From Janibacter indicus (GTDB taxonomy: Bacteria > Actinomycetota > Actinomycetes > Actinomycetales > Dermatophilaceae): a DNA stretch of 64,000 nucleotides. Each line of letters begins with the position of its first letter. Position 1 is the stretch's first letter. The position numbers were made by a program, and so were the translations under genes. Below, piece after piece: positions 3-63,800 of this stretch. The stretch is taken from positions 62,001-126,000 of the forward strand of contig NZ_FWXN01000001.1 in the NCBI RefSeq assembly GCF_900176385.1. Reading direction: 5' to 3'. The notes beneath the pieces are model-generated. The model was given only the letters and a program-made list of their open reading frames with translations, did no database searches and was not told where the DNA came from.

Positions 3-3000
3 TCAGCGATCGAAGGCGCGGGCGATGAGGTCCGCCTGCTCCTGCGCGTGCTTCTTTGCGGTACCGGCGGCGGGGGAGGCGCTCGGCGGGCGGGTCACCG
101 CGGTCAGACCGCGGGTCTCGCCGTGCTTGGCCAGATCGGCCGGCAGGTTCATCGCCAGGAAGGGCCACGCACCCTGGTTCTCCGGCTCCTCCTGCACGAG
201 CACGAGCTCGGCATCGGGGTACTTCGCCAGCTCGGCCGCGAGCTCCTCACCCGGAAGCGGGTAGAAGCGCTCGAGATGCAGGATCGCGGTCTGCTCGTCG
301 CCGCGCTTCTTGCGCTCGGCCTCGAGGTCCCACGTGACCTTGCCCGCGGCGATGAGCACCCGGGTGACCTGGTCCCCCTTCGGCTGGGTCATGTCGGGCA
401 GGACCGCGCGGAAGCCACCGGAAGTGAAGTCCTCGGGCTGGCTGCTCGCGGCCTTGAGGCGCAGCATCGACTTCGGGGTGAAGACGATGAGCGGACGACG
501 CGGCCGCTGATAGGCCTGACGACGCAGCAGGTGGAAGTAGCTCGCCGGCGTCGACGGGAAGGCGACCGTCATGTTGTTTTGTGCGCACAGCGCGAGGAAG
601 CGCTCGATGCGGGCGGAGGAGTGGTCCGGCCCCTGGCCCTCGTAGCCGTGCGGCAGGAGGAGGACGACCGAGGAGTTCTGGCCCCACTTCTGCTCGGAGG
701 AGGAGACGAACTCGTCGATGATCGTGGCCGCGCCGTTGACGAAGTCACCGAACTGGGCCTCCCACAGCACGAGCGCGTCGGGGCGCTCGACGGAGTAGCC
801 GTACTCGAAGCCGAGGGCCGCGAACTCCGACAGCAGCGAGTCGTAGACCCAGAAGCGGGCCTGCCCACCACCGAGGTAGTTGAGCGGCGTCCACTCCTCG
901 CCGTTGTTCTTGTCGATGAGGACCGCGTGCCGCTGCACGAAGGTGCCGCGACGCGAGTCCTGACCGGCCAGACGCACCGGGGTGCCGTCCATGAGGAGCG
1001 AGCCGAAGGCGATCATCTCGCCGGTGCCCCAGTCGATGCCGCCCTCGCTGACCGAGGCGGCGCGCTTCTGCATGGCCTGCTGCAGCTTGGGGTGGATCGT
1101 GAAGTCGGCCGGCGGGGAGTCGAAGACGTCACCGATGTGCTTGAGGTCGGTCTCGGAGATGCCGGTCTCGTCGGCCGAGCGGGTCGTCGCGTCACTGGTC
1201 TGCGACGACGGACGCTCGAGACCGGCGTTGTCCGGCGCGTCGGAGCCGGTGTCGCCCGAGTCGCTGCTCGCGTCGGCGGGCGACGCGGGGGCCTTGAGGG
1301 CCTCCTTGGTCTCGACGAAGACCCGCTCGAGCTGCGCCTGGTAGTCGCGCAGCGCGGCGTCGGCCTCCTCCGGGGTGATGTCCTTGCGGCCGATGAGGCT
1401 CTCCGTGTAGAGCTTGCGCACCGAGCGCTTGGACTCGATGAGCTTGTACATCAGCGGCTGGGTCATCGACGGGTCGTCGCCCTCGTTGTGACCGCGGCGG
1501 CGGTAGCACACGACGTCGATGACGACGTCCTTGTGGAAGCGCTGGCGGAACTCGAAGGCGAGCTCGGCGACCCGCACGCAGGCCTCCGGGTCGTCGCCGT
1601 TGACGTGGAAGATCGGCGCCTGGATCATCCGCGCGACGTCGGTCGAGTAGACCGACGAGCGGCTCGCGGACGGCGAGGTGGTGAAGCCGACCTGGTTGTT
1701 GACGACCACGTGGATCGTGCCGCCGGTGCGGTAGCCGCGCAGCTGGCTCTGCTGCAGCGTCTCGGCCACGACACCCTGACCGGCGAAGGCCGCGTCACCG
1801 TGCATGAGGATCGGCAGCACCGGGAAGTCCTCGCCGCCGTGGTTGAGGCGGTCCTGCTTGGCGCGCGCGATGCCCTCGAGGACGGGGTTGACCGCCTCGA
1901 GGTGGCTCGGGTTGGCCGCGAGGTAGACCTTGGTCGTCTCGCCGTCCTCGCCGGTGAACTCGCCCTCGGTCCCGAGGTGGTACTTGACGTCGCCGGAGCC
2001 CTGGACGGACTTCGGGTCGAGCTGGCCCTCGAACTCGCGGAAGATCTGCGCGTAGGACTTGCCGGCGATGTTGGCCAGCACGTTGAGGCGGCCGCGGTGC
2101 GGCATGCCGATGCAGACCTCGTCCATGCCCTCGCCCGCCGCGCGGGTGAGGATGCGGTCGAGCACCGCGATGACCGACTCGCCGCCTTCGAGGGAGAAGC
2201 GCTTCTGCCCGACGAACTTCGTCTGCAGGAAGGTCTCGAAGGCCTCGGCGGCGTTGAGTCGACGCAAGATGCGCAGCTGCTCGTCGCTCGTCGTCTTGGC
2301 GTAGCCGACCTCGACGCGCTCCTGCATCCAGCGGCGCTGCTCGGGGTCCTGGATGTGCATGTACTCGATGCCGGTGGTGCGGCAGTAGGAGTCACGCAGG
2401 ATGCCGAGGATCTTGCGCAGCTTGAGGAAGGGCTCGCCGCCGAAGCCGCCGGTGGCGAAGTGCCGGTCGAGGTCCCACAGCGTCAGGTCGTGGCTCGTGA
2501 TGTCGAGGTCCTCGTGGCGACGCTGCTTGTACTCCAGCGGGTCGATGTCGGCCATGAGGTGACCGCGCACGCGGTAGGCGTGGATGAGCTCCTGGACACG
2601 TGCGACCTTGTTGATGTCGTCGTCGTGCGTGGTGGAGATGTCCTGCACCCAGCGCACCGGCTCGTAGGGGATGCGCAGGCTCTCGAAGATCTCGTCGTAG
2701 AAGCCCTCGGCACCCAGCAGCAGCTGGTGGACGATCCGCAGGAACTCGCCCGACTGCGCACCCTGGATGATGCGGTGGTCGTAGGTCGAGGTCAGCGTGA
2801 CGATCTTGGAGACGGCATTGCGGTTGAGCGTCTCGGTGCTCGCGCCCTGCCATTCGGCGGGATAGTCGAGGGCACCGACGCCGATGATCGCGCCCTGGCC
2901 CTTCATCAGGCGCGGGATCGAGTGGACGGTGCCGATGCCGCCGGGGTTGGTCAGCGACATCGTCGTGCCCTGGAAGTCCTCGACGGTCAGCTTGCCGTCG

Positions 3001-3806
3001 CGCGCCTTCTTGACGACGACCTCGTAGGCATTCCAGAAGGCGGTGAAGTCCATCGTCTCGGCCGGCTTGACCGCGGGCACGAGCAGCTGGCGGGAGCCGT
3101 CGTCCTTCTGCAGGTCGATGGCGATGCCCAGACCGATGTGCGCGGGCTGGACGACGACCGGCTTGCCCTTGTCGTTCGTCGTGTAGCCGACGTTCATCTC
3201 GGGCATGGCGCGCAGCGCCTTGACCAGGGCGTAGCCGATGAGGTGGGTGAAGGAGACCTTGCCACCGCGGCTGCGCTTGAGGTGGTTGTTGATGACGATG
3301 CGGTTGTCGATGAGCAGCTTCGCCGGGACGGCGCGCACCGACGTGGCGGTCGGGACCTCGAGCGAGGACTCCATGTTGGTCACGACCCGGGCGGCAGCAC
3401 CGCGAAGGGGGGTGTGCACGTCATCCTCGACCGGCTTCTGGGCGGCCGCGGGCTTCTGCTCGTCACGCGGGGTGGGCTCGGCCTTCTTGGCCTCGGCCGT
3501 CTTCGGCTCGGCCTTGGGCTCCGCCTTGGCGGGCTCGGCCTTCTTCGCCTCGGCCTTGGGCTCGGCCTTCTTCGCCTCGGGGGCGGGGGCGGCCTTGGGC
3601 TCGCTCGCGGCCGGCGCATCCCCCTTCGCGCTGGTGCCGTTGCTCCCGCCGGTGCCCTGACCCGGGGTGTAGTTCTCGAAGAACTCCCACCAGGCCTTGT
3701 CGACACTGTTGCGGTCCTTCTTGTACTGCTCGTACAGCTCGTCGACCAGCCACTCGTTGGGGCCGAAGTCGTTCAGGGACACGGAGCCATCCTGGGGGTC
3801 AGGCAC
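3..3806 (-). CDS. kgd: Kgd-type 2-oxoglutarate decarboxylase/dehydrogenase E1 with fused E2-like domain
   Basis: This 1267-residue enzyme is the actinobacterial ThDP-dependent 2-oxoglutarate decarboxylase of the TCA cycle, which acts as E1 of the oxoglutarate dehydrogenase complex. Order seen: an N-terminal helix (about 1-46), an Ala/Lys/Glu/Pro-rich linker (about 50-130), an E2-type succinyltransferase domain (about 135-365) ending in DHRIIQGA with its catalytic His, then the E1 module with GMPHRGRLN, the ThDP/Mg motif GDAAFAGQG...NN near residue 672, and [10 protein letters not shown]. Length is close to the mycobacterial and corynebacterial homologues. A Ser/Asp/Thr-rich, probably disordered stretch lies at about 832-885. 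The start is GTG (3806) with an AAAGAGG-like ribosome site upstream. The stop is the third base of the window, so the gene is complete. The fold and family are certain; the balance between decarboxylase and dehydrogenase activity is not visible. Confidence 0.96.
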
Positions 3807-3911: not shown

Positions 3912-3963
3912 GCGGCCTTGATACGGCCGCGGGACCGCCCCCCTTCGTCAGGGAAGCGGTCCC
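3912..3963 (-). terminator. Hairpin terminator after the ABC-2 permease
   Basis: Two adjacent inverted repeats lie between the end of the permease and the start of kgd. GGGACCGC pairs with GCGGTCCC (3931-3938/3956-3963), and GCGGCC pairs with GGCCGC (3912-3917/3925-3930). The loop of the first carries a CCCCTTCG motif. No clear T-run follows, which is usual at this base composition. It probably separates the ABC operon from kgd. Confidence 0.5.
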
Positions 3964-5801: not shown

Positions 5802-5882
5802 CACGTCCCCTTCATGGTTGTGGTCGGGGACCATGCAACCATCCCGGCCGAAGGGGGGCATCCGCCTTTCGGCTGAACCTCA

Positions 5883-5950: not shown

Positions 5951-7306
5951 ATGACCATAGGTCTACTCATCCTGGCCCTGGTGCTCACTCTGGGTACCGC
6001 CCTCTTCGTGGCTGCCGAGTTCTCCCTCGTCGCCCTCGACCGACCAGCTGTCCAGCGCGCCGTCGACGCCGGCGACACCGCAGCCAAGCCCGTGCTCGGC
6101 TCCCTTCGACGGCTCTCCACCCTGCTCTCCGCTTGCCAGATCGGCATCACGGTCACGACCCTCGCGCTGGGCTTCATCGCCAGCCCGGCGGTCGGCTCGC
6201 TCATCCAGCCCGCCCTCGAGGCGGTCGGCCTGCCGGAGCGCGTGGCGTCCTCGTCCGCCGACGGCCTGGCGCTGATCCTCGCCACCGTCTTCTCGATGAT
6301 CCTCGGCGAGATGGTCCCCAAGACCCTCGCCGTCTCCGAGCCGCTCGGCACGGCCAAGGTCGTCGCGATGCCGATGCGGGTCATCGGCGTGCTCTTCAAG
6401 CCGCTGATCTTCGTGCTCAACGGCTCGGCCAACTGGGTGCTGCACCGCATGGGCGTCGAGCCGCAGGAGGAGCTGTCCGCCGCCCGCAGCCCCGCCGAGC
6501 TCGCCTCGCTCGTGCGCACCTCCGTCGAGGCCGGCACGCTCGACTCCGGCACCGCGCGTCTGGTGACGCGCTCGCTCGGCTTCGGCGAGCAGACCGCGGC
6601 GGACGTCATGACGCCCCGCAACCGCGCGAGCGCCATCGACCGCACTGCGTCCGCCGAGGACCTCGTCTCGCTCGCGCGCCGCACCGGTCACTCGCGCTTC
6701 CCCGTCACGGGGGAGGACTGGGACGACATCGACGGTGTCGTCCACGTCAAGAAGGCCATCGCCGTCCCGCACGAGCGTCGGGCCGCCGTGCCCGTCTCGG
6801 CCCTGATGATCGACCCGGTCGTCGTGCCCGAGACGCTGCGCCTGGACCCCCTGCTCATCCAGCTGCGTGACTCCGGTCTGCAGATGGGTGTCGTCGTCGA
6901 CGAGTACGGCGGCACCGCGGGTGTCGTCACGCTCGAGGACCTCGTCGAGGAGATCGTCGGCGAGGTCAGCGACGAGCACGACCTCGCGCAGACCACCGGC
7001 CGCGCCCACGGTGACGGCGTGTGGACCGTGCCCGGCCTGTGGCGCCCCGACGAGGTCCGCGACCGCCTGGGGGCCGAGGTGCCCGAGGGCGCGGCCTACG
7101 AGACCGTCGGTGGCTGGGTCATGGCCGAGCTCGGCCGCGTCCCCGAGGTCGGCGACGTCGTCGAGCTCGACGGCTGGCAGGTCACCGTGACCGACATGGA
7201 CACCCGTCGCGTCGACCGGTTGCGCTTCGTCCAGCACGAGCCGGCCACCGACGGTGGTGCCGTCACGGACGGCGACGCCATGACGAAGGGGGGTGAGCCG
7301 GCATGA
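5951..7306 (+). CDS. CNNM/CorC (HlyC) family membrane protein with CBS pair and C-terminal CorC domain
   Basis: A 451-residue protein of the CNNM/DUF21 family. An N-terminal DUF21 membrane domain (about 1-185, roughly four hydrophobic segments, with the conserved GEMVPKTLAVS) is followed by a CBS pair (about 205-335) and a CorC_HlyC transporter-associated domain (about 345-435). Characterised relatives act in Mg2+ efflux or tolerance; the old name haemolysin is not supported by structure. No Shine-Dalgarno precedes the ATG; instead a TAGAAT -10-like hexamer lies ten bases upstream, so the message may have almost no leader. It overlaps the next gene by ATGA, forming a tandem paralogue operon. 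Confidence 0.92.
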   Translation: MTIGLLILALVLTLGTALFVAAEFSLVALDRPAVQRAVDAGDTAAKPVLGSLRRLSTLLSACQIGITVTTLALGFIASPAVGSLIQPALEAVGLPERVASSSADGLALILATVFSMILGEMVPKTLAVSEPLGTAKVVAMPMRVIGVLFKPLIFVLNGSANWVLHRMGVEPQEELSAARSPAELASLVRTSVEAGTLDSGTARLVTRSLGFGEQTAADVMTPRNRASAIDRTASAEDLVSLARRTGHSRFPVTGEDWDDIDGVVHVKKAIAVPHERRAAVPVSALMIDPVVVPETLRLDPLLIQLRDSGLQMGVVVDEYGGTAGVVTLEDLVEEIVGEVSDEHDLAQTTGRAHGDGVWTVPGLWRPDEVRDRLGAEVPEGAAYETVGGWVMAELGRVPEVGDVVELDGWQVTVTDMDTRRVDRLRFVQHEPATDGGAVTDGDAMTKGGEPA

Positions 7307-8551: not shown

Positions 8552-9410
8552 ATGAGCAGTGTGCGGACCCTGCCCAACCCCTATCGCGGGGTCCGGGCCC
8601 ACGCCCCGCCGGTGACGATCGCCGAGCGCTTCGCGATGCTCTCGCTCGTGCGGCCCGGCCTGCTGCTGTCGCACTGCTCGGCGGCCCTGGTGTGGGATCT
8701 GCCGGTCCCACGCTCCTGCGAGCACTTGGCCCTGCACGTCACAGCACCGGACACGCGGCTGCGTCGACCGGGGGTGGTCGCACACCGGGGCGCGCGCGAG
8801 GCGGACCGGGTCGCGGGAGTGCCGGTGACCTCTCTCGCCGACACGTGGATCGACCTCGCGGCGAGGCTGCCCCTCGCCGACCTCGTCATGCTCGGGGACG
8901 CGGTCGCCCGACGCCTGAGGAGCATGGACCCCCTTCGCCAGCGGGCGGGGCGCCGGGGTGCCGGGAGCGGTCCGCGCGCGGGAGGCGCTCGAGTGGATCC
9001 GGCTGGGCAGTCGGTCGGCGATGGAGACCCGATCGCGGGTGCTCTTCGTGCGAGCGGGTCTGCCGGAGCCCGCGCTCAACGTCGAGATCCACGACCCCGA
9101 CGGCGGCTGGCTCGCCACGAGCGACCTCGTCTGGCGCGAGGGGCGGGTCGTGGGGGAGTACCAGGGCGCCCACCATTTCGGCGACTACGGGCGCGGTGAC
9201 GACGACATCGCGCGGCGGCGACTGATCGAGGGCAGCGGGTGGCTCTTCGTCGACTTCACCAAGGGTGACTACTACGCGCGGCCACGGCGACTGGCCCTGC
9301 TCCGGCGGCTGGCGGGACATCTCGACTGCGCGCTCGATCCGGCGGGCCTGGCCGCGATCGAGGACTCCCTCGAGCTCCCCGGGCCTCCCGTCCGCCCGTG
9401 CGGGGCGTGA
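8552..9410 (+). pseudogene. Frameshifted AbiEi/DUF559-like protein gene
   Basis: Two halves of one familiar actinobacterial protein lie in different frames. From 8552 the first frame gives an N-terminal part containing SHCSAALVWDLPVP and VTSLADTWIDLAARLPLAD, typical of AbiEi antitoxin-like/DUF559 proteins. From about 8955 the next frame gives METRSRVLFVRAGLPEP, VVGEYQGAHHFGD and SGWLFVDFTKGDYY, which matches the endonuclease-fold C-terminal half (E...E.D/Q pattern). One base gained or lost in the G-rich stretch 8935-8958 would restore a protein of about 285 residues. This is either a genuine disruption or an assembly/sequencing error. Function in the family is poorly known. Confidence 0.6.
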
Positions 9411-11402: not shown

Positions 11403-12953
11403 ATGTCCAGCACGCAGGCCCCAGAGGTCAAGCCCAAGGAGGGCTTCTCCTCGCGCAAGGTCTTCATCTTCGCAGCCATCGGATCGGCGGTGGGCCTCGG
11501 CAACATCTGGCGCTTCCCGTACGTGGCCTACGAAGGTGGCGGCGGCGCCTTCATCATCCCCTACCTGTGCGCGTTGCTCTTCGCGGGCATCCCGCTCCTC
11601 TACCTCGACTACGCCATCGGCCACCGCTTCCGCGGATCGGCCCCGCTCTCCCTTCGCCGGCTGCACCGCGGCGCCGAGTGGCTCGGCTGGTGGCAGGTGC
11701 TCATCTGCGTCGTCATCGCCATCTACTACGCCGCGATCCTCGCCTGGGCGGCGAAGTACACCGTCCTGTCCTTCACCAAGGGCTGGGGCGATGACCCCAA
11801 TGCCTACTTCTTCGGCGACTACCTGCAGGCGGCCGGGACCCCCGGGCCGACCTTCGACTTCGTCCCCGGCATCCTCATGACGATGATCCTCGTCTGGGTC
11901 GTGACCATCGGCGTGCTCGCCATGGGCGTCCAGACCGGCATCGGGCGCACCGCGGTGGTCTTCATCCCCGTGCTCGTGCTCGCCTTCATCGTCCTGGTCA
12001 TCCAGGCGCTCACCCTCGACGGCTCGATGGAGGGCCTCAACGCCCTCTTCACCCCCGACTGGGGCGCGCTCACGCACGGCAGCGTGTGGATCTCGGCGGT
12101 CGGCCAGATCTTCTTCAGCCTGTCCGTCGGCTTCGGCATCATGATCACCTACGCCAGCTACGTCGACCGCAAGACCGACATGACCGGCTCGGGTGCCGTC
12201 GTCGGCTTCTCCAACTCCGGCTTCGAGCTGCTCACCGGCATCGGTGTCTTCGCCGCACTCGGCTTCATGGCCCAAGCGGCCGGCACCGAGGTCAGCGAGG
12301 TCGTGACCAACGGCATCGGCCTTGCCTTCGTCGCCTTCCCGACGATCATCAACGAAGCCCCCGGCGGCGTCGTCATCGGCGTGCTCTTCTTCGTCTCGCT
12401 GCTGCTCGCCGGCGTCACCTCGCTCATCTCGATCGTCGAGGTCGTCATCGGCGCTGTCCGCGACAAGGTCGGCATCTCGCGCACCGCCGCGACCTTCGTC
12501 GTCGGCGTGCCGATGGCTGTGGTCAGCGTCCTGATGTTCTCGACGACCGGCGGCATCTACGTGCTCGACACGATGGACGCCTTCGTCAACAGCTTCGGCA
12601 TCATCGCCGTCGCGGCCGTGATGATGCTCGCCATCACCTACGTCTTCCGCAAGCTCGGTGTGCTGCAGCGTCACCTCGACGCCCGCAGCTCGATCAAGCT
12701 GCGCGGCTGGTGGCCGGCGCTCGTCGCGGTCGTGGTGCCGCTGCTGCTCATCGCCATGCTGTGGCAGGAGCTCAAGGCCAAGATCGACACGCCCTACGAG
12801 GAGTACCCGGCCGACCTGCTCAACGTCTTCGGCTGGGGCATGGTCGTCGCGCTGCCGATCCTGGCGATCGGGCTCTCGCTCATCCCGTGGCGCAAGGACG
12901 TCTCGCTCGAGGACCCCACCACGGTCGAGGTCGACGGAGGTGAGCAGGCATGA
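11403..12953 (+). CDS. metP: Sodium-dependent amino-acid transporter, NSS/SNF family (MetP-like)
   Basis: A 516-residue secondary transporter of the neurotransmitter:sodium symporter family. The TM1 signature GLGNIWRFPY, which forms part of the substrate and Na+ site, is intact, and about twelve hydrophobic segments follow. It ends in a short hydrophilic tail and overlaps (ATGA) a 47-residue single-TM protein. In Corynebacterium glutamicum the equivalent MetP-MetS pair imports methionine and alanine. Substrate assignment here rests on that architecture only. The ATG at 11403 has GGAGTG six bases upstream. The 88-base gap before it holds no clear operator. Confidence 0.9.
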   Translation: MSSTQAPEVKPKEGFSSRKVFIFAAIGSAVGLGNIWRFPYVAYEGGGGAFIIPYLCALLFAGIPLLYLDYAIGHRFRGSAPLSLRRLHRGAEWLGWWQVLICVVIAIYYAAILAWAAKYTVLSFTKGWGDDPNAYFFGDYLQAAGTPGPTFDFVPGILMTMILVWVVTIGVLAMGVQTGIGRTAVVFIPVLVLAFIVLVIQALTLDGSMEGLNALFTPDWGALTHGSVWISAVGQIFFSLSVGFGIMITYASYVDRKTDMTGSGAVVGFSNSGFELLTGIGVFAALGFMAQAAGTEVSEVVTNGIGLAFVAFPTIINEAPGGVVIGVLFFVSLLLAGVTSLISIVEVVIGAVRDKVGISRTAATFVVGVPMAVVSVLMFSTTGGIYVLDTMDAFVNSFGIIAVAAVMMLAITYVFRKLGVLQRHLDARSSIKLRGWWPALVAVVVPLLLIAMLWQELKAKIDTPYEEYPADLLNVFGWGMVVALPILAIGLSLIPWRKDVSLEDPTTVEVDGGEQA

Positions 12954-13112: not shown

Positions 13113-13153
13113 CCGAAGGGGGTCGACGACCAGGTGTCGTCGGCCCCCTTCGG
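13113..13153 (+). terminator. Terminator hairpin of the metP-metS operon
   Basis: CCGAAGGGGG (13113-13122) pairs with CCCCCTTCGG (13144-13153), and CGACGAC/GTCGTCG extend the stem. The arms are inverted copies of the window's repeated CGAAGGGG motif. It sits 20 bases after the metS stop. Confidence 0.75.
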
Positions 13154-13558: not shown

Positions 13559-13602
13559 GCTTCGGCCCCCTTCGCCCTGACGTCGTTGACGCCACCTGGC
13601 TG

Positions 13603-13877: not shown

Positions 13878-15521
13878 GTGACCCCCGAAGAGCTTGTCGA
13901 CGCCATCCGTGCCGCCCTCACTGCCGCCGTCGAGGCCGGCGACCTGACCGTCGAGGTGCCCGCAGACATCCGTGTCGAGCGACCCAAGGCCAAGGGCCAC
14001 GGCGACTGGACGACCAATGTCGCGATGCAGCTCGCCAAGCCCGCCGGCATGAAGCCCCGTGACGTCGCGACCGCGATCGCAGCCCGCCTCGAGCAGGCCG
14101 AGGGAGTGGCCTCCGTCGAGGTCGCCGGCCCCGGCTTCCTCAACATCACCCTCGAGGCCGCCTCCGCGGGTGCCCTCGCGCGCACCATCGTCGAGGCCGG
14201 CGCCGACTATGGCCGCAACGACGCGATGGCCGGCCACGTGGTCAACCTCGAGTTCATCTCGGCCAACCCGACCGGCCCGCTGCACATCGGCCACACCCGC
14301 TGGGCCGCGCTCGGCGACTCGATGCGCCGCCTGCTCGCCGCCTCCGGCGCCGACGTCACGGCCGAGTACTACATCAACGACGCGGGCGCCCAGATGGACA
14401 ACTTCGGCGCCTCGGTCCTCGCCCGGGCGAAGGGGGAGCCGACCCCCGAGGGCGGGTACCCCGGCGCCTATGTCGACGACCTGGCCGCGACCGCCCTCGA
14501 GCAGCGCCCCGACCTGCTCGAGCTGCCCGCCGACGAGGCCCTCGCGACCGCCCGTGCCATCGGCTACGAGGCGCAGCTCGCCGACATCCGCAGCACCCTC
14601 GAGGACTTCGGGGTGATCTTCGACGTGTGGTTCTCCGAGCGGACGCTGCACGACGGGGGAGCGGTCGAGCTGGCCATCGCCCGCCTACGCGAGCAGGGGC
14701 ACGTCGACGACCGCGACGGTGCCGTCTGGCTGCGCACGACCGACTTCGGCGACGACAAGGACCGCGTGCTCGTGCGCGCCGACGGTGTGCCGACCTACTT
14801 CGCCGCCGACGCCGCCTACTACCTGAGCAAGAAGGATCGCGGCTTCCCGGAGAAGATCTACCTCCTTGGCGCCGACCACCACGGCTACGTCTCCCGGCTC
14901 AAGGCGATCGCCGCCTGCGCCGGCGACGACCCGACGAAGAACATCGAGATCCGCATCGGGCAGCTGGTCAACCTCGACGGGGCCAAGCTGTCCAAGCGCG
15001 CCGGCAACATCGTCGAGCTGCGCGACCTCATCTCGTGGATCGGCTCCGACGCCGTGCGCTACTCGCTGGCCCGCTACCCCGCGGACAGCCCGCTCAGCCT
15101 CGACGGCGAGGAGCTGCGCAAGCAGACCAACGACAACCCGGTCTTCTACGTGCAGTATGCCCACGCCCGCACCTTCAACGTCGCCCGTCTGGCGGCCGAG
15201 GACGGCGTGCGTCGTGAGGACGCCTTCGACCCGGGCCTGCTGTCGCACCCGACCGAGGCGACCCTGCTCGCGACGCTCGGCGACTTCCCGCGGGTCGTTG
15301 CCCATGCCGCCGAGCTGCGTGAGCCGCACCGGGTTGCGCGCTACCTCGAGACACTCGCCGGCCACTTCCACAAGTGGTACGACACCTGCCGCGTGCGCCC
15401 GCGCTCCGACGAGGAGATCACCGACACGCACCGCACCCGCCTGTGGCTCAACGACGCCACCCGCCAGGTGCTCGCCAACGGCCTCGACCTGCTCGGCGTC
15501 TCCGCGCCCGAGCGGATGTGA
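13878..15521 (+). CDS. argS: Arginyl-tRNA synthetase
   Basis: A 547-residue class I aminoacyl-tRNA synthetase that charges tRNA-Arg. The N-terminal tRNA-binding domain (about 1-90) is followed by the HIGH motif in GPLHIGHTRW (about residue 136), the KMSKS-like loop KLSKRAG (about 373) and the C-terminal DALR anticodon domain (about 430-547). Start GTG at 13878, without a Shine-Dalgarno, and with a -10-like hexamer eight bases upstream. It opens the argS-lysA-hom-thrC-thrB run and is divergent from its own substrate tRNA-Arg(CCG), a layout seen elsewhere in Actinobacteria. Confidence 0.97.
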   Translation: MTPEELVDAIRAALTAAVEAGDLTVEVPADIRVERPKAKGHGDWTTNVAMQLAKPAGMKPRDVATAIAARLEQAEGVASVEVAGPGFLNITLEAASAGALARTIVEAGADYGRNDAMAGHVVNLEFISANPTGPLHIGHTRWAALGDSMRRLLAASGADVTAEYYINDAGAQMDNFGASVLARAKGEPTPEGGYPGAYVDDLAATALEQRPDLLELPADEALATARAIGYEAQLADIRSTLEDFGVIFDVWFSERTLHDGGAVELAIARLREQGHVDDRDGAVWLRTTDFGDDKDRVLVRADGVPTYFAADAAYYLSKKDRGFPEKIYLLGADHHGYVSRLKAIAACAGDDPTKNIEIRIGQLVNLDGAKLSKRAGNIVELRDLISWIGSDAVRYSLARYPADSPLSLDGEELRKQTNDNPVFYVQYAHARTFNVARLAAEDGVRREDAFDPGLLSHPTEATLLATLGDFPRVVAHAAELREPHRVARYLETLAGHFHKWYDTCRVRPRSDEEITDTHRTRLWLNDATRQVLANGLDLLGVSAPERM

Positions 15522-15528
15522 GGCCCGC

Positions 15529-17004
15529 ATGGCGACCAACATGAGGGCCCACGAGGCCGGCATCCTCCACGCCGACGGCTACGGCGCCGCACCCCAGTGG
15601 CTGCCGACGCCGCAGGACGTCAACGAGCTCCTGCCGCAGCTGTGGCCGGCCAACGTCGAGCGCAACACCGATGGCGTCCTGGCCGTCTCCGGCCTGCCCG
15701 TCACCGACATCGCCCGTGACTTCGGCACCGCGGCCTACGTGCTCGACGAAGACGACTTCCGTTCTCGCGCAAGGGCGTTCAGGGACGACTTCACCGCTCC
15801 CTTCGATGCCGTGGCCGGCGCCGACGTCTACTACGCGGGCAAGGCCTTCCTGTGCTCCGCGGTCGCCCGCTGGGTCATGGACGAGGGCCTCAACCTCGAC
15901 ACCTGCAGCGGCGGCGAGCTCGCCGTGGCGCAGCGCGTCGGCTTCCCCGGCGAGCGCATCGCCCTGCACGGCAACAACAAGTCCGTCGCCGAGCTGCGCC
16001 AGGCCCTGTCCTACGGCGTCGGCCGGATCGTCGTCGACTCCTTCGCCGAGATCGACCGGGTCGCCGAGGTCGCGGCCGAGCTCGGCGTCGTCGCGCCCGT
16101 CATGGTCCGCGTGACCGTCGGTGTCGAGGCGCACACCCACGAGTTCATCGCGACGGCCCACGAGGACCAGAAGTTCGGCTTCTCCCTCGCCGGTGGCCAG
16201 GCGCGCGCCGCCATCGACGCCATCGTGGCGAAGGGGGACCGCCTGCGCCTGCTCGGGCTGCACAGCCACATCGGCAGCCAGATCTTCGACGTCTCCGGCT
16301 TCGAGATCGCGGCCCGGCGGCTCGTCGCGCTGCACACCGAGGTCGCCGACGTGCACGGCATCGCCATGCCCGAGATGGACCTCGGCGGTGGCTACGGCAT
16401 CGCCTACACCTCGGAGCACAGCCCGCTCACGCCGGGCGAGCTCGGCACCCAGATGGCCGCGCTCGTCGACCGCGAGCTCAAGGAGCTGCGCGACGGCCAC
16501 CCCGACGCCCCGCTGCCGCGGATCTCGATCGAGCCGGGCCGGGCGATCGCCGGGCCGAGCGCCTTCACCCTCTACGAGATCGGCACGGTCAAGGATGTCG
16601 AGGTCGCCCACGACGCGATCCGCTCCTACGTGAGCGTCGACGGGGGCATGAGCGACAACGTGCGCACCGCCCTCTACGGCGCCGACTACTCGTGCACCCT
16701 CGCCGGCCGCACCTCGACCGCCGGCCCGCGGCTCGTGCGGGTCGTCGGGCGGCACTGCGAGAGCGGCGACATCGTCGTCATGGACGAGTACCTGCCCGCC
16801 GACATCGTCCCCGGTGACCTCATCGCGGTCCCCGGCACCGGTGCCTACTGCCGCAGCCTGTCCAACCAGTACAACCACACGCCCCGACCGCCGGTCATCG
16901 CCGTGCGGGACGGCGTCGCGCGGGTCATCGTGCGACGCGAGACGATCGACGACCTGCTCGCCCTCGACGTGGACGAGCCCGCCCCGCTCCAGGAGGTCCG
17001 ATGA
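15529..17004 (+). CDS. lysA: Diaminopimelate decarboxylase
   Basis: A 491-residue PLP enzyme of the ornithine/DAP decarboxylase family that makes lysine from meso-diaminopimelate. The PLP lysine lies in YYAGKAFLC (about residue 105), followed by the HSHIGSQ barrel motif, the phosphate-binding GGGYG and the GTGAYC C-terminal motif that places the substrate-binding Cys/Tyr. The start ATG at 15529 lies eight bases after the argS stop. It overlaps hom by ATGA. Together with hom and thrCB this is the aspartate-family block conserved in Actinobacteria. Confidence 0.97.
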   Translation: MATNMRAHEAGILHADGYGAAPQWLPTPQDVNELLPQLWPANVERNTDGVLAVSGLPVTDIARDFGTAAYVLDEDDFRSRARAFRDDFTAPFDAVAGADVYYAGKAFLCSAVARWVMDEGLNLDTCSGGELAVAQRVGFPGERIALHGNNKSVAELRQALSYGVGRIVVDSFAEIDRVAEVAAELGVVAPVMVRVTVGVEAHTHEFIATAHEDQKFGFSLAGGQARAAIDAIVAKGDRLRLLGLHSHIGSQIFDVSGFEIAARRLVALHTEVADVHGIAMPEMDLGGGYGIAYTSEHSPLTPGELGTQMAALVDRELKELRDGHPDAPLPRISIEPGRAIAGPSAFTLYEIGTVKDVEVAHDAIRSYVSVDGGMSDNVRTALYGADYSCTLAGRTSTAGPRLVRVVGRHCESGDIVVMDEYLPADIVPGDLIAVPGTGAYCRSLSNQYNHTPRPPVIAVRDGVARVIVRRETIDDLLALDVDEPAPLQEVR

Positions 17005-22556: not shown

Positions 22557-22590
22557 GGGGGGCCGCTGCGCTACGTGCGCGGCGGCCCCC
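22557..22590 (+). terminator. rho terminator hairpin
   Basis: A G-rich arm (about 22557-22571) pairs with its complement (22576-22590) around a short TACG loop, 20 bases after the rho stop, and is followed by TTCGTCGTCC. Confidence 0.7.
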
Positions 22591-22685
22591 TTCGTCGTCC
22601 CGAAACCCTCACCGCGCGCGACCCGACCATGAGACATAGGGTTGTGGCACACCACGCTTCACGGGCTCGGGGGGTGCCCGACCCT

Positions 22686-22705
22686 GCATTGCCGTAGGGC
22701 AATGC
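22686..22705. repeat. 20-bp palindrome, copy 1 (GCATTGCC family)
   Basis: GCATTGCC and GGCAATGC flank a GTAG loop. Identical arms recur three times at 55554-55646. Here it sits at the 3' end of the GNAT gene. Confidence 0.7.
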
Positions 22706-22719
22706 GAAGGGGGAGGAGG

Positions 22720-39044: not shown

Positions 39045-39062
39045 GCCCCCCTTCGCCTCTCC

Positions 39063-45176: not shown

Positions 45177-45213
45177 CCACGGCCCCGGATCTCCCTTCGG
45201 TCCGGGGCCGTGG
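45177..45213 (+). terminator. Hairpin terminator after the dehydrogenase
   Basis: CCACGGCCCCGGA (45177-45189) pairs perfectly with TCCGGGGCCGTGG (45201-45213), 13 bases after the stop codon. Confidence 0.75.
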
Positions 45214-45917: not shown

Positions 45918-47651
45918 GTGCTCATCAGCCTCGTGCGCCGCCACCTGAGCGGCACGGGCGGCCGGGTTCTGCTGCTCCTCGTCCTGCAGCTCGCCGCGAC
46001 CCTCGCCTCCCTCTACCTGCCCAGCCTCAACGGCGAGATCATCGACAACGGTGTGGCGACCGGCGACACCGGCTACATCGTGCGCCACGGCGGCGTCATG
46101 CTCGCCGTCTCCGTCGTCCAGATCGTCGCGACCATCGCCGCGACGTGGATCGGCGCCGGCCTGTCGGCGACGATGGCCGCGCGGCTGCGCGCGGCCGTCT
46201 TCTCGCGGGTGGGCAGCTTCAGCGCCCAGGAGGTCGCCCGCTTCGGTGCGCCGACGCTCATCTCGCGCACCACCAATGACGTCACCCAGGTGCAGACGGT
46301 CACCAACATGGCGCTGACGATGATGGTCACCGCGCCGATGATGATGATCGGCGGCGTGATCATGGCCCTGCGCGAGGACATCGGTCTCAGCTGGCTCGTC
46401 GCGGTCGCGGTGCCGCTGCTCGCCGTGTCGGTGGGTCTGGTGATCCGGGCGATGATCCCCAACTTCCGCCGCATGCAGACGAGCGTCGACACCGTCAACC
46501 GGATCCTGCGCGAGCAGATCACCGGCGTGCGGGTGGTGCGTGCCTTCGTGCGCGAAGGGAGCGAACGCGAGCGCTTCGAGGTGGCCAACACCGAGTACAC
46601 GGCCTCCGCGGTCGCCGTGGGCCGCCTCATGTCGCTCGCCTTCCCGATCGTCATGCTGATCCTCAACCTCTCGACCGTCGCCGTCCTGTGGTTCGGTGCG
46701 CACCGGATCGAGAGCGGGCAGATGCAGATCGGTGCCCTCACCGCCTTCATGACCTATCTCATGCAGATCCTCATGTCGGTGATGATGGCGACCTTCATGT
46801 CGATGATGCTGCCGCGGGCTGCCGTCTCCGCCGGGCGCATCGACGAGGTGCTGTCGACCGAGTCGAGCGTCGTCCCGCCGAGCGAGCCCCGGCCGATGGT
46901 CGAGCAGCGACCCTCCGTCGTCCTCGAGGGCGTGGAGTTCTCCTACCCGGGTGCCGACTCGCCCGTGCTGTGCGACGTGGACCTGCGGGCCGAGCCCGGC
47001 CGCACGACGGCGATCATCGGGTCGACGGGCGCCGGCAAGACGACGCTGCTCGACCTCGTGCCCCGACTGCACGACGTCACGGGCGGGCGGGTCCTCGTCG
47101 GTGGGGTCGACGTGCGTGAGCAGGACCCGGCCCTGCTGTGGTCGAGCATCGCGGTCGTCCCGCAGAAGGCCTTCCTCTTCAGCGGGACCATCGCCTCCAA
47201 CCTGCGCCAGGCCAAGCCCGACGCGAGCGACGACGAGCTGTGGGAGGCGCTGGGCGTGGCGCAGGCCGAGGACTTCGTCCGGGTTCTCGACGGAGGTCTC
47301 GAGGCACCCGTCGCCCAGGGCGGCACCAACCTCTCCGGCGGGCAGCGTCAGCGCCTGTCCATCGCCCGCGCCATCGTGCGGCGGCCGGCGATCTATCTCC
47401 TCGACGACTCCTTCTCGGCGCTCGACCTGACGACCGATGCCAGGCTGCGCGCCGCCCTTCGTCCCGTCGTCACCGACAGCGTCGTCATCGTCGTCGCCCA
47501 ACGCGTCTCGTCGATCGTCGACGCCGACCACATCGTCGTCCTCGACGACGGCCGGGTCGTCGGCGACGGCACCCACGACGAGCTCCTCGCGAGCTGCCCG
47601 ACCTATGTCGAGATCGTCGAGTCCCAGGCTTCGCGGGAGGAGGCCGCATGA
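45918..47651 (+). CDS. Heterodimeric ABC exporter, half A (degenerate Walker B)
   Basis: A 577-residue type IV ABC exporter half-transporter: six membrane helices (about 1-315) followed by an NBD. Walker A STGAGKTTLL and signature LSGGQRQRL are normal. However, the Walker B end is YLLDDSFSALD, with Asp in place of the catalytic Glu, and the switch His is replaced by Gln (VVAQRVSSI). These are the marks of the half that forms a non-hydrolysing site with its partner, as in TM287/288, LmrCD and BmrCD. The GTG start is leaderless-like. It overlaps half B by ATGA. Substrates of such pairs are often drugs or lipids. Confidence 0.93.
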   Translation: MLISLVRRHLSGTGGRVLLLLVLQLAATLASLYLPSLNGEIIDNGVATGDTGYIVRHGGVMLAVSVVQIVATIAATWIGAGLSATMAARLRAAVFSRVGSFSAQEVARFGAPTLISRTTNDVTQVQTVTNMALTMMVTAPMMMIGGVIMALREDIGLSWLVAVAVPLLAVSVGLVIRAMIPNFRRMQTSVDTVNRILREQITGVRVVRAFVREGSERERFEVANTEYTASAVAVGRLMSLAFPIVMLILNLSTVAVLWFGAHRIESGQMQIGALTAFMTYLMQILMSVMMATFMSMMLPRAAVSAGRIDEVLSTESSVVPPSEPRPMVEQRPSVVLEGVEFSYPGADSPVLCDVDLRAEPGRTTAIIGSTGAGKTTLLDLVPRLHDVTGGRVLVGGVDVREQDPALLWSSIAVVPQKAFLFSGTIASNLRQAKPDASDDELWEALGVAQAEDFVRVLDGGLEAPVAQGGTNLSGGQRQRLSIARAIVRRPAIYLLDDSFSALDLTTDARLRAALRPVVTDSVVIVVAQRVSSIVDADHIVVLDDGRVVGDGTHDELLASCPTYVEIVESQASREEAA

Positions 47652-49654
47652 GCGCGAGCGAAGTTCCCACCGCGGAGGAGAAGGCGGCCCAGGCCCGAAG
47701 GGGGCCGGGCGCCGCCGCGCGTCGCGGACCGATGCAGATGGGCACGCCGGGGGAGAAGTCGAAGAACTTCCTCCCTTCGGCCCAGCGCCTGCTCGGCCGG
47801 CTGCGCCCGCAGCGCTCCCGCGTGCTCACGGCGATCGTCCTGACCGTCGTCTCCGTCGGGCTGAGCGCGGTCGGTCCACTCGTGCTCGCCCGGGCGACCG
47901 ACCGGATCTTCGCCGGGTGGATCGGCGCGGAGCTGCCCGCCGGCGTCCCCCTCGACACGATCGTCGAGCAGCTGCGGGCGAAGGGGGAGGACCGCCAGGC
48001 CGACATGCTCGCGGCCATGCCGCACCTCGTCCCGGGGCAGGGCATGGACTTCGGGGCCATCGGTCACATCCTGCTGCTCGCGCTCGGGCTCTACGTCGTC
48101 GCCGCGGTGCTGTCGTGGCTGCATGGGCGGGTCATCGTCCACGCGGTCAACCGGGTCGTCTTCGACCTGCGCGCCGAGGTCGAGGCCAAGCTGCACCGGC
48201 TGCCGCTGCCGTACTTCGACAAGCAGCCGCGCGGCGAAGTGCTCAGCCGGGTGACCAACGACATCGACAACGTCGCGCAGTCGCTGCAGCAGACCCTCAG
48301 CCAGCTGCTGACGAGCCTCATCACGGTCGTCGCGATGGTCGCGATGATGGTGTGGATCTCCCCGCTGCTCTCGCTCATCGCCCTCGTGACGATCCCGATC
48401 TCGATCGTGCTCACCGGCGCGATCGGCAAGCGCAGCCAGCGGCACTTCATCCAGCAGTGGACGTCCACCGGAGAGCTCAGCTCGGTCATCGAGGAGACGT
48501 ACACGGGCCACTCGCTCGTCAAGGTCTACGGGCGGCAGGAGGAGGTCGACGCGGCCTTCGCCGAGCGCAACGAGCAGCTGCGGTCGGCGGGCTTCGGCGC
48601 GCAGTTCGTCAGCGGCATCATCATGCCGGCGATGATGTTCGTCGGGAACCTCAACTATGTCGTCATCGCCGTCGTCGGTGGCCTGCGGGTCGCCTCCGGC
48701 ACGATGACCCTCGGTGACGTGCAGGCCTTCATCCAGTACTCGCGGCAGTTCACCCAGCCGCTCACCCAGGTCGCGTCGATGGCCAACCTCATGCAGTCGG
48801 GGGTGGCGTCGGCCGAGCGGGTCTTCGAGGTGCTCGACGCGCCGGAGCAGGTCGAGGACCCGGAGGTGCCGGCCGCCCGAGGCGACGGGCACGGGCGGGT
48901 CGCCTTCGAGGACGTCTCCTTCAGCTACGACCCGGCGAAGCCGCTCATCGAGGGCCTCGACCTCGTCGTCGAGCCGGGCCAGACCGTCGCGATCGTCGGG
49001 CCGACCGGTGCCGGCAAGACGACGCTGGTCAACCTCACCATGCGCTTCTACGAGCTCGACTCCGGGCGGATCACCATCGACGGCGTCGACATCACGACCA
49101 TGTCGCGCGCCGAGCTGCGCTCGCGCACCGGCATGGTCCTGCAGGACACGTGGCTCTTCAGCGGGACGATCGGCGACAACATCGCCTACGGGCGGCCGGG
49201 CGCGACCCGCGAGCAGGTGCGGGCCGCCGCGGAGGCGACTTACGTCGACCGCTTCGTGCACTCGCTGCCCGACGGCTACGACACCCACCTCGACGACGAG
49301 GGCGGCAACATCTCCGCCGGGGAGAAGCAGCTGCTGACGATCGCGCGCGCCTTCCTCGCCGACCCGAGCCTGCTGATCCTCGACGAGGCGACGAGCTCGG
49401 TCGACACCCGTACGGAGCGCCTCGTGCAGCAGGCGATGGCCGCGCTGCGCGGCGACCGGACGAGCTTCGTCATCGCGCACCGGCTCTCGACCATCCGCGA
49501 CGCGGATCTCATCGTCGTCATGGAGGACGGGCACATCGCCGAGCAGGGCACGCACGAGAGCCTGCTCGCGGCCGAGGGCGCCTACGCCCGCCTCTACCGC
49601 AGCCAGTTCGCCGCCGCCGTGACGGAGCTGGACACCGCGGTCAGCCTCGCCTGA
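47648..49654 (+). CDS. Heterodimeric ABC exporter, half B (degenerate signature)
   Basis: A 668-residue half-transporter. A charged N-terminal extension of about 50 residues precedes six membrane helices. A long loop between TM1 and TM2 (about residues 95-140, GVPLDTIVEQLRAKGEDRQA) faces outward and is longer than in half A. The NBD has Walker A PTGAGKTTL, the altered signature ISAGEKQLLT, Walker B LLILDEATSSVD with catalytic Glu, and switch His in IAHRLSTI. The altered signature pairs in space with half A's altered Walker B, so exactly one of the two ATP sites is intact. Confidence 0.93.
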   Translation: MSASEVPTAEEKAAQARRGPGAAARRGPMQMGTPGEKSKNFLPSAQRLLGRLRPQRSRVLTAIVLTVVSVGLSAVGPLVLARATDRIFAGWIGAELPAGVPLDTIVEQLRAKGEDRQADMLAAMPHLVPGQGMDFGAIGHILLLALGLYVVAAVLSWLHGRVIVHAVNRVVFDLRAEVEAKLHRLPLPYFDKQPRGEVLSRVTNDIDNVAQSLQQTLSQLLTSLITVVAMVAMMVWISPLLSLIALVTIPISIVLTGAIGKRSQRHFIQQWTSTGELSSVIEETYTGHSLVKVYGRQEEVDAAFAERNEQLRSAGFGAQFVSGIIMPAMMFVGNLNYVVIAVVGGLRVASGTMTLGDVQAFIQYSRQFTQPLTQVASMANLMQSGVASAERVFEVLDAPEQVEDPEVPAARGDGHGRVAFEDVSFSYDPAKPLIEGLDLVVEPGQTVAIVGPTGAGKTTLVNLTMRFYELDSGRITIDGVDITTMSRAELRSRTGMVLQDTWLFSGTIGDNIAYGRPGATREQVRAAAEATYVDRFVHSLPDGYDTHLDDEGGNISAGEKQLLTIARAFLADPSLLILDEATSSVDTRTERLVQQAMAALRGDRTSFVIAHRLSTIRDADLIVVMEDGHIAEQGTHESLLAAEGAYARLYRSQFAAAVTELDTAVSLA

Positions 49655-49840
49655 GGGGTGCCGCGCAGCCGTCCCACTTCGTCCGGAGTGGGCGCTCCCG
49701 GAGAGGGGGTGGGCGCGCTGCCGACGTCCTTCGTGATCCCGTGGTCCGGTTGTCGTTCACGACGTCGGCATGACGCTGCGCCGACCCTCCTCGCCGTCCG
49801 CTCCCTTCGCTGCGGGCCATCTCAACCGAGCCCGGTGGCA

Positions 49841-49905: not shown

Positions 49906-49947
49906 CGACGCCGAGCACGCCCCCTTCGTCCGCAGGCTCCACACATG

Positions 49948-49989
49948 ACGAAGGGGGCCGCACCGGTGATCCGGTGCAGCCCCCTTCGT
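49948..49989 (-). terminator. Terminator of the crotonyl-CoA carboxylase/reductase gene
   Basis: Bases 49948-49966 pair with 49971-49989 around a TGAT loop, with one mismatch; both arms carry the CGAAGGGGG motif. It lies 16 bases beyond the stop of the leftward gene. Confidence 0.8.
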
Positions 49990-52117: not shown

Positions 52118-52166
52118 GACGAAGGGGGCGTGGCACCGGTTCGTCCGGTGCCATGCCCCCTTCGTC
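52118..52166. terminator. Bidirectional terminator between convergent genes
   Basis: Arms 52118-52139 and 52145-52166 pair over 22 bases with one wobble-type mismatch around TTCGT. Inverted CGAAGGGGG copies form the stem base. It serves both the I36 gene and the epimerase gene. Confidence 0.8.
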
Positions 52167-52639: not shown

Positions 52640-52672
52640 AGCCGAAGGGGGGCGGCGCGCCCCCCTTCGGCT
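52640..52672. terminator. 15-bp hairpin built of paired CGAAGGGG motifs
   Basis: AGCCGAAGGGGGGCG (52640-52654) pairs perfectly with 52658-52672 around a GCG loop. It stands just upstream of mce rather than after a gene, so it may shield mce from leftward readthrough or belong to a lost gene. Confidence 0.6.
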
Positions 52673-53252: not shown

Positions 53253-53378
53253 CCGGTCATGTGTCGTGCCCCACCCGGGCAGGGCTGCCCTCCCTTCGTC
53301 CTCGTCGCTAGGGTGAGCGCAAGCCGTGGCGCCGGGACCGGTGCCGCGAGACCACACACCGTTGTTGGAGGCATCCAG

Positions 53379-56403: not shown

Positions 56404-57879
<1,476 letters not shown>

Positions 57880-58934: not shown

Positions 58935-59908
58935 GCCGCCGTCGTACTCCCTTCGTCATGACCGTGGTGGCCCTGCCGCTCGCCCTCGGGGGCTGCGGCC
59001 TCGGCTCCTCGATCGCCGGCATCCACGACGCTCCCGCCGAGCAGTCCGGCGGTGCGTCGGTCACCTCCGGCACCGCGACCAAGGTCGTCGAGCGCGTCGT
59101 CGGTGACGCCGCCGAGGTCAGCCGGGCCAAGGCCGACTCCGCCGCCCGCCGCAAGATCCTCTCCGGCCCGGCCCTGCGCGAGATCGAGGCGGCCGCGGTG
59201 AGCAAGGACTCGGCGGGCCGCACCTCGGCCAAGACCGAGGGCCTCGAGGTGCTTGCCGTGAGCCGTGGCACCGACTGGCCCCGCGCCGTCCTGGCGACCT
59301 CGCGCACCGGCGACGTCCAGTACCTGCACGTGCTCGTGGCCGAGAAGGCCGACCGGCCGTACACCCTCTTCGCCGACGTGCCCATGGCAGCCGGGGCCAG
59401 CGTGCCGGCACTGCCGGCCGTCGACGAGGGCGCACCCGTCAAGCTCTCCTCCGCGCCCAGCCAGGACGTGGCGACCGCGGCCACGTCGTGGGGCAAGGCC
59501 GTGGCCTTCCCCGCGCCGAAGAAGGCGCCGCAGGACGTGTCCGTCGCCGACGGCTTCTCCAGCGCGCTGAAGAAGAACGCGAGGGCGACCAACAAGGACC
59601 TCGGCGACCTCGCCGACTACACCCAGCGCCAGGCGATCGCCGACGGCGAGACGGTGAGCTTCGAGCTCGCCGACGGCGGGGCGATCACCTTCGTGCCGAT
59701 GACCCGGACGGACACGATCCGGGCGACTGACAAGCTCAAGGAGCTGAAGATCGAGCAGCAGGCGCTCAGGCGCGTGCTCGACGCCTCCACGGTCAAGCGG
59801 GCGCTGTCGGTCAAGCACGCCGAGACGCTCGCGCTCGTCACGCCCGCCGAGGGCAAGGCCCGCGTCGTCGGCGCGAGCGAGGTCGTGGAGTCGGCTGCGG
59901 GCAGCTGA
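58931..59908 (+). CDS. Secreted lipoprotein of unknown function
   Basis: A 325-residue exported lipoprotein: signal peptide RRRTPFVMTVVALPLALGG with lipobox LGGC, Cys at about 22. The mature part is Ala/Lys/Asp-rich with alternating strands (VQYLHVLVAEKADRPYTLFA, ITFVPMTRTDTIR), like the uncharacterised actinobacterial lipoproteins found near YbbN. It is translationally coupled to the two-span membrane protein. A role in envelope maintenance is guesswork. Confidence 0.82.
   Translation: MSRRRTPFVMTVVALPLALGGCGLGSSIAGIHDAPAEQSGGASVTSGTATKVVERVVGDAAEVSRAKADSAARRKILSGPALREIEAAAVSKDSAGRTSAKTEGLEVLAVSRGTDWPRAVLATSRTGDVQYLHVLVAEKADRPYTLFADVPMAAGASVPALPAVDEGAPVKLSSAPSQDVATAATSWGKAVAFPAPKKAPQDVSVADGFSSALKKNARATNKDLGDLADYTQRQAIADGETVSFELADGGAITFVPMTRTDTIRATDKLKELKIEQQALRRVLDASTVKRALSVKHAETLALVTPAEGKARVVGASEVVESAAGS

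Positions 59909-61607: not shown

Positions 61608-63796
<2,189 letters not shown>

Positions 63797-63800: not shown

Follow-up and report, generated by a model that had tools for sequence, protein, structure and literature searches.

A short dispersed word in Janibacter genomes that probably acts as a DNA-uptake sequence, with candidate dialects in related actinobacteria

A probable DNA-uptake sequence in Janibacter

The stretch analyzed here (the window) comprises 64,000 nucleotides of Janibacter indicus, part of contig C22 of genome G000 (3.42 Mb), and carries many copies of a short word, GRCGAAGGGRG, with the core CGAAGGGGG. Judging from sequence comparisons, this word is probably a DNA-uptake sequence that gives Janibacter preferential uptake of conspecific DNA, and it displays all of the in silico features of uptake sequences that are testable for it. 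It appears to work like the DNA uptake sequences (DUS) of Neisseriaceae and the uptake signal sequences (USS) of Pasteurellaceae while belonging to neither, since it differs from both in word, phylum, and type of pilus. An uptake-like signal was one of three readings raised in a preliminary description of the window, and it is supported, circumstantially, by balanced strand use, by copies both within and between genes, by hairpins close to stop codons, by dialects in related genera, by absence from acquired DNA, and by the competence genes present.

We hypothesize that the word, when present on free DNA, would be recognized at the cell surface by the Janibacter competence apparatus, that conspecific DNA would thereby be taken up preferentially, and that biased uptake together with recombination would spread and repair the word across the genome. 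The DNA-capturing filament would be a pilus of the Flp/Tad type rather than type IVa, as in the transformation of Micrococcus luteus, and a pilin or accessory protein of this pilus may read the word. A reader that differs between genera would give rise to dialects.

The word is sharply bounded and strongly over-represented

Counting both strands, the window contains 28 + 25 = 53 copies of the 8-mer CGAAGGGG/CCCCTTCG, against 3.3, 6.3, 6.9, and 9.3 expected under Markov models of orders 1 to 4 (∼8-fold at order 3), and GAAGGGGG and CGAAGGGG are its two most over-represented 8-mers. The 9-mer CGAAGGGGG is the extension of 44 of the 53 copies, and 14 additional copies of CGAAGGGAG bring the total for CGAAGGGRG to 58. 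Genome-wide, G000 has 850 + 865 = 1,715 copies of CGAAGGGGG by strand (∼0.5 per kb) and 10 + 10 = 20 copies of the reversed-word control, so that the excess of the 8-mer reported in the preliminary description is real and was understated.

The same holds in larger samples, 456 kb taken from G000 and 400 kb from G008, a second Janibacter genome that is complete. At Markov order 3, CGAAGGGGG is found 257 times vs 13.2 expected in G008 and 252 times vs 11.7 in G000, and the variant CGAAGGGAG is raised too (84 vs 10.2 and 104 vs 9.7), while CGAAGGGGA (44 vs 6.8 and 40 vs 6.5) and CGAAGGGGT (23 vs 11.7 and 24 vs 10.4) are raised less. Upstream of the core, G occupies the second position before it in 73 to 75% of copies and G or A the position directly before it in 77 to 79%, and these preferences give the consensus GRCGAAGGGRG. 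Every position outside −2 to +8 carries at most 0.19 bits of information in both samples, which excludes a longer repeat element.

The core is non-palindromic, and its reverse complement, CCCCCTTCG, differs. This bears on the possibility that the word is a site akin to the cyanobacterial HIP1, kept by methylation or mismatch repair and without any role in uptake, which we consider very unlikely. HIP1 is likewise found at high frequency in cyanobacterial genomes, and orphan methyltransferases offer a clue to its function (PMC4390886), but this methyltransferase-linked octamer is palindromic, unlike CGAAGGGGG. Also speaking against a HIP1-like site, G008 carries an Eco29kI-type restriction-modification system in a stretch that lacks the motif and is described below.

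Placement, strand use, and hairpins

Gene placement in the window relies on a simple in-house gene caller, which puts 29/58 CGAAGGGRG copies within called genes and 29/58 outside. In the two samples, 67 to 72% of the CGAAGGGGG copies are genic (86/257 lie outside called genes in G008 and 70/252 in G000), and the density per 10 kb is greater between genes than within them (22.4 vs 4.7 in G008, 4.7-fold; 12.5 vs 4.6 in G000, 2.8-fold). The genic copies occupy all six combinations of two orientations and three frames. Synonymous-codon shuffling of the genes yields far fewer copies than are observed for CGAAGGGGG (sense/antisense 84/87 observed vs 7.4/14.7 in G008 and 73/109 vs 7.1/25.2 in G000) and for CGAAGGGAG (22/40 vs 1.3/0.8 and 31/51 vs 1.3/1.7), and the reversed-word control lies at the shuffle expectation. 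The preliminary description had held that a count matching a Markov or codon expectation, or an enrichment confined to terminators, would speak against its reading; neither pattern is found.

These data also largely refute the idea that the word is a component of terminators, a dispersed repeat of the repetitive extragenic palindrome or miniature inverted-repeat transposable element (REP/MITE) kind, or a by-product of codon usage. Some inverted pairs do form terminator-like hairpins, but the mostly genic placement in all frames and the low information beyond the word make such an origin scarcely credible; REP/MITE repeats are conserved well beyond a short word, and the Janibacter word is not. 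Against codon usage, synonymous shuffles are 4- to 11-fold lower than the observed counts, with the reservation that a comparison word, GTGCGCACC, also lies 3- to 4-fold above its own shuffle.

Replication polarity is absent: across 20 stretches of G008, 179 copies point along replication and 162 oppose it, with the replichores taken as the two halves from dnaA at base 1 and the terminus position assumed. The 850/865 split of G000 is uninformative by itself because contig orientation is arbitrary; the overall strand balance holds within contigs and replichores.

Chi in Escherichia coli is strongly polar, and motifs of the FtsK-orienting polar sequence (KOPS) type are polar. The E. coli motifs resemble the Janibacter word in being short, over-represented, and present in coding DNA but are replication-polar, unlike the Janibacter word, and the Chi-like and polar chromosome-organizing readings that the preliminary description had also entertained are disfavored by the near-even 179 vs 162. 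A non-polar Chi-like signal, through which the word would modulate a repair nuclease-helicase so that self DNA is recombined and not degraded, would mark the core genome, skip acquired islands, and could vary by genus; we nevertheless judge it unlikely, given the lack of replichore polarity and given that it would leave unexplained both the stop-proximal hairpins and the association with a Tad pilus ATPase. The genome-wide spread of the word would suit a motif for chromosome organization or segregation (KOPS-, SMC-, or nucleoid-protein-like), yet this is highly improbable with strands balanced within contigs and replichores, unlike polar KOPS-type motifs, and neither stop-proximal inverted pairs nor a change of word from genus to genus would be expected of it.

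Returning to the uptake-sequence reading, the arrangement of close neighbors is strongly nonrandom. In G008, copies at most 60 nt apart face each other in 44 cases vs 8.5 expected, diverge in 19 vs 8.5, and point in the same direction in 3 vs 17. The 44 facing pairs fall between convergent genes (17), between tandem (12) or divergent (4) genes, within genes (9), or at edges (2), and 28 of the 29 facing hairpins whose distance to a stop codon is measurable begin at most 29 nt from it. Among the diverging pairs, 11/19 are inside genes. The six hairpins named in the preliminary description (13113, 25790, 37181, 49948, 52118, and 52640) are all present as inverted pairs and fold much more stably than shuffled sequence (z −4.5 to −10.5). 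From their sequence and position, inverted pairs of the Janibacter word are probably terminator-like.

Clade distribution and conservation of sites

High counts of CGAAGGGGG are confined to Janibacter and its close relatives. Among 147 genomes of the family and order, all 16 from the genus (g1) contain 797 to 1,860 copies, two from g38 (the J. melonis clade) contain 1,939 and 1,317, and the remaining 129 contain 3 to 80. The word is also the unprompted top 9-mer in each of eight named Janibacter loci of 15 to 21 kb. Marihabitans asiaticum carries it too, with 20 copies in 21 kb (L017). In the same 21 kb, TCCCCGGGG occurs 24 times.

When the window was compared with nine other loci of the clade, 53/90 sites were exact matches, against 146/514 for control words of the same composition, and in four loci of other genera the values were 0/36 against 20/171. 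All-against-all comparison of nine Janibacter sequences gave 389/602 exact sites vs 1,310/4,860 matched words; against genera that lack the motif, 0/282 Janibacter sites were exact, and they matched at fewer of the 9 bases than controls did (5.73 vs 6.73). Because sites recur from one comparison to the next, these comparisons are not independent. The pattern implies that sites arose by substitution in the Janibacter lineage and were then held, as biased uptake or selection on the word would do.

Candidate dialects in other genera

De novo word searches started from single 20-kb stretches of other genera yielded CGTATGCCG, CGGATGCCG, GGTATGACG, and GGATGCCTC. The first reaches a maximum of 3,218 copies (G022) and is present at least 150 times in 39/73 family genomes outside g1, compared with 1 to 13 copies in Janibacter. 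Within genus g26, G040 has 527 copies and G083 has 4, which could reflect rapid gain or loss, or a different word in G083. CGGATGCCG reaches 1,011 to 2,294 copies in four family genomes (G031, G041, G058, and G078). When 246 genomes sampled across the class were counted, it was prominent in a single further family, f19, in which 10/11 genomes have 677 to 3,084 copies and the last, G276, has 175.

Three cores derived de novo are strongly enriched in stretches of 60 to 100 kb: GTATGCCG (73 vs 3.2 expected in G022, 56 vs 2.3 in G053, and 41 vs 3.5 in G074), GTATGACG (40 vs 3.2 in G042), and GGATGCCG (96 vs 9.7 in G041 and 75 vs 16.4 in G124). These words exceed the synonymous shuffle in 6/6 genomes and in both orientations, the lowest excess being 3.7-fold (G041 antisense). 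The reversed controls are mostly at the shuffle level, with 4 and 2 vs 0.7 and 0.4 in G053 and small excesses, at single-digit counts, in G041, G124, and G022. As with the Janibacter word, the two strands are used about equally, and the words are denser between genes in 4/6 genomes, G124 and G074 being the exceptions.

Three stretches of acquired DNA are poor in the word

We tested three cases of acquired DNA: a 36-kb island in G000, an 11-kb stretch in G008, and an 11-kb insert in G022. On contig C7 of G000, there is no CGAAGGGRG from 73,614 to 111,418, a region that includes a 36-kb strain-specific island (C7:75058-110944; L101-L103) with 0 copies vs ∼29 expected at the sample density and 1.7 under the order-3 background. 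The corresponding site in G008 is empty, with conserved flanks to ∼75,057 and from 110,945 of C7 and ∼640 bases between them. A 20-kb portion of the island (86,001-106,000) had no full match in the 15 other genomes of the genus, the longest piece being ∼1.5 kb at 65 to 69% identity, while the main alignments of a motif-bearing 20-kb neighbor were at ∼75 to 91% among the matches listed. The G+C content is 0.698 across C7:71,280-111,417 vs 0.714 and 0.709 alongside, and with values this close composition is not the cause of the word-free island.

The island is classed simply as accessory DNA. Its genes include those for a sortase, a CAP protein, a DUF4192 protein, and a GlnE-like paralogue, and no tRNA was found in its three stretches. 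A phage origin was considered and set aside, as only 1 of 10 proteins (nine of them inside the island) matched PHROGs, to a family of unknown function.

Competence genes and the Tad pilus

On C22 of G000, homology places comEA (helix-hairpin-helix and SLBB domains) beside comEC; the latter was dropped as a discriminating marker, being present in 82/88 genomes of the order. Also by homology, the genome has three Tad clusters that encode an ATPase and T2SSF proteins as well as small proteins resembling pilins or TadE, of which some fall below the Pfam cutoff, and a fourth ATPase locus on C20. A type IVa pilus was rejected as reader of the word: PilT is above the cutoff in 26/147 genomes and, in family f1, in G040 only, with two partial pieces below the cutoff in G020.

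The ATPase of the C28 Tad cluster (L105) is associated with the presence of a word. At an E value of 1e-60 it is missing from 11/89 family genomes, of which 9/11 have none of the searched words. Across all 89 family genomes, the only ones included in this test, word-bearing and wordless genomes number 60/18 with an L105-type ATPase and 2/9 without it (P = 0.0003, with no correction for kinship). With one genome per genus, which handles kinship crudely, the figures are 34/11 vs 2/6 (P = 0.0096), or 35/11 vs 1/6 (P = 0.003) if G088 replaces G052 as the representative of g38. A genome was scored word-positive if it belonged to g1 or g38, if it reached 150 copies of CGTATGCCG, or if it reached 150 copies of CGGATGCCG together with three times the control for that word. 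Weak positives are G061 (200 copies) and, for CGGATGCCG, G016 and G062 (445 and 244), and in G030 the ratio to the control is just 2.1. Word-rich genomes also have elevated counts of the reversed CGTATGCCG control, owing to the 7-mer CGTATGC that it has in common with the word.

As a control, the L104-type ATPase was missing at the same E value from 5 of 54 family genomes (G019, G021, G045, G046, and G048, the last three being incomplete assemblies), 4/5 of which bear a word, so this ATPase is not associated with it. Among these 54 genomes, those without an L105-type ATPase are G021, G028, G029, and G052, and only G052 of the four has a word.

In several genomes, the L105-type gene is interrupted or truncated. 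In G022, it is split within the Walker A motif by 11 kb containing a large serine recombinase (L200, C43), and this insert has 1 copy of GTATGCCG vs 13 expected. G043 has the same split point, with an insert of ∼35 kb encoding a D5-like protein and type I restriction genes (L201-L202, C23); it has no known word and is hence uninformative in that respect. In G032, the ATPase match ends at the same place, and the 15 kb read did not contain the remainder (L203, C14). In G008, the match stops at about residue 267, and next to it lies an 11-kb stretch (2,231,031-2,242,170; L094, L206, C1) with 0 CGAAGGGRG vs 9 expected. This stretch encodes ArdA, Vsr, and the Eco29kI restriction-modification system but also a TadE-like protein belonging to the cluster, and its scanned proteins included no integrase. 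Prophage disruption of competence has precedents (PMC7029219, PMC4774983), and word-poor DNA within a Tad ATPase gene is expected if transformation otherwise purges such mobile DNA. These four genomes are at most suggestive of a role for the C28-type Tad cluster as a competence pilus.

Weighing the evidence, and relation to known systems

Several observations weigh against an uptake function or its wider extension. Because GTGCGCACC, itself over-represented, beats its synonymous shuffle by ∼3- to 4-fold, the 4.3-fold antisense excess of CGAAGGGGG in G000 is not decisive alone. Exact conservation of window sites is barely above that of controls in J. melonis (2/8 vs 12/51) and Marihabitans (3/11 vs 12/68). 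The near-universal comEC does not discriminate within the order, 18 family genomes have the Tad ATPase and none of the searched words, and 2/11 genomes without the ATPase carry a word, including J. melonis G052 (1,939 copies). Interrupted or partial ATPase genes were scored as present. Among the words of other genera, facing pairs are not in excess (in small samples, 8 pairs within 60 nt face each other, 6 diverge, and 8 point the same way), which slightly weakens the case for wider dialects. Finally, we found no report of natural transformation in Janibacter and, by title or start of abstract, none of actinobacterial uptake sequences, in a literature search whose scope excluded preprints and most subscription journals. 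Papers containing the letters of CGAAGGGG were, by title and among the matches listed, detection assays and unrelated work.

On balance, we lean narrowly toward a broader proposal, in which an uptake-sequence system would have evolved independently in two actinobacterial families. It would have four or more dialects (CGAAGGGRG, GTATGCCG, GTATGACG, and GGATGCCG) and be read by a Flp/Tad competence pilus whose ATPase gene harbors word-poor DNA in some genomes.

The closest parallels are proteobacterial. The DUS of Neisseriaceae run into the thousands in each genome (2,245 to 5,918 copies for the dialects quoted) and resemble the Janibacter word in being both genic and intergenic, in forming terminator-associated inverted pairs, in having clade-specific dialects, and in being absent from some members (PMC3630211). 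They differ in word and phylum, and the Janibacter family is almost without PilT-type type IVa pili and has Flp/Tad genes. The USS types of Pasteurellaceae, AAGTGCGGT and ACAAGCGGT, share a 9-base core, strong enrichment, and family-level types with the Janibacter word (PMC12616744) but differ from it in word and apparatus. The conserved word cores CTG and GCGG described for DUS and USS in the same source are found in neither CGAAGGGGG nor its complement. Among actinobacteria, transformation of Micrococcus luteus likewise depends on Flp/Tad, in that two tad clusters are required for it and comEA/comEC homologues are present; the phrase “uptake sequence” does not occur in the main text of that paper (PMC4322843).

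A passage in a 2025 paper names Neisseriaceae and Pasteurellaceae as the only families known for self-specific DNA uptake (PMC12616744), and uptake specificity in Janibacter would therefore be new. If true, high-G+C Gram-positive bacteria equipped with a Tad pilus would add a third case, reached by convergence, to the two known ones, which are proteobacterial with type IV pili. A word is present in 36/53 genera of the family (one genome per genus), and such a system would provide an independent replicate for asking why uptake sequences evolve, whether by molecular drive, by selection for recombination, or as a means of clearing mobile DNA. It would further tell, for each of these bacteria, whether it is or until recently was naturally transformable, and by what DNA.

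Copies of the word and other repeats in the window

The positions given for motif copies in the preliminary description are correct to within 3 bases, and its gene names argS, thrC, and prfA are confirmed by NCBIfam, which further names rho, atpA, and glyA; the gene that it called STAS has no NCBIfam match at 1e-20. Within genes, CGAAGGGGG lies in the sense orientation in gene 3-3782 (374..382 and 3620..3628, both −), argS (14428..14436, +), gene 15529-17004 (16229..16237, +), thrC (18413..18421 and 18553..18561, both +), rho (20841..20849, +), prfA (24147..24155 and 24345..24353, both +), glyA (28159..28167, +), gene 39946-40239 (40005..40013, +), and other genes at 7284..7292, 47979..47987, and 56735..56743 (all +). 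Antisense copies lie in gene 3-3782 (3403..3411, +), in a homoserine dehydrogenase gene (17001-18323; copy at 17021..17029, −), and at 19951..19959 and 57290..57298 (both −), with a further copy in a called gene at 43117..43125 (−). The product of the homoserine dehydrogenase gene shares 91 to 92% identity with its counterparts in J. anophelis, J. terrae, J. hoylei, and J. limosus, which places the genome in Janibacter and not in Micrococcus. Outside called genes, single copies are at 3939..3947, 8929..8937, 13566..13574, 22586..22594, 39047..39055, 40367..40375, and 49920..49928 on the minus strand and at 5849..5857, 22705..22713, 39753..39761, and 47696..47704 on the plus strand.

The CGAAGGGAG variant is antisense in gene 15529-17004 (15797..15805), in atpA (33202..33210), and in genes at 6100..6108, 11648..11656, 26902..26910, and 47771..47779 (all −), sense in a gene at 46553..46561 (+), and within a called gene at 42880..42888 (+). 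Outside called genes, it occurs at 23260..23268, 24902..24910, 45191..45199, 49801..49809, 53290..53298, and 58947..58955 (all −). The copies are unevenly spread, with a 9-kb patch (28168-37197) that includes atpA having only one CGAAGGGRG, at 33202.

The inverted pair at 13113..13153 (13114-13122 + and 13144-13152 −) is predicted to form a terminator-like hairpin of −40.9 kcal/mol. Predicted hairpins are likewise formed by the pairs at 25790..25825 (25790-25798 + and 25817-25825 −; −41.5 kcal/mol), 37178..37240 (37198-37206 − and 37212-37220 +; −63.6 kcal/mol), 49948..49989 (49949-49957 + and 49980-49988 −; −41.1 kcal/mol), 52118..52166 (52120-52128 + and 52156-52164 −; −52.5 kcal/mol), and 52640..52672 (52643-52651 + and 52661-52669 −; −34.9 kcal/mol). 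Another close inverted pair, at 61775..61803 (61775-61783 − and 61795-61803 +), is inside a gene.

Other repeats are also present. G000 has a second dispersed repeat of GCATTGCCGTAGGGCAATGC-like palindromes, with three tandem copies at 55545-55655 of the window and further words in L100-L119. Inverted repeats with GTTGGTGTCAC-like arms lie at 13603-13652 and 49827-49919 of the window, and several Janibacter loci (L009, L010, L012, and L021) have CCCTGGTTGCGGT-like words among their top-ranking 9-mers. In G008 (L080-L099), the palindrome ACCCTAGGGT gives 42 counts vs 0.1 expected, which corresponds to ∼21 sites as both strands were counted, and it is absent among the top words listed for G000.

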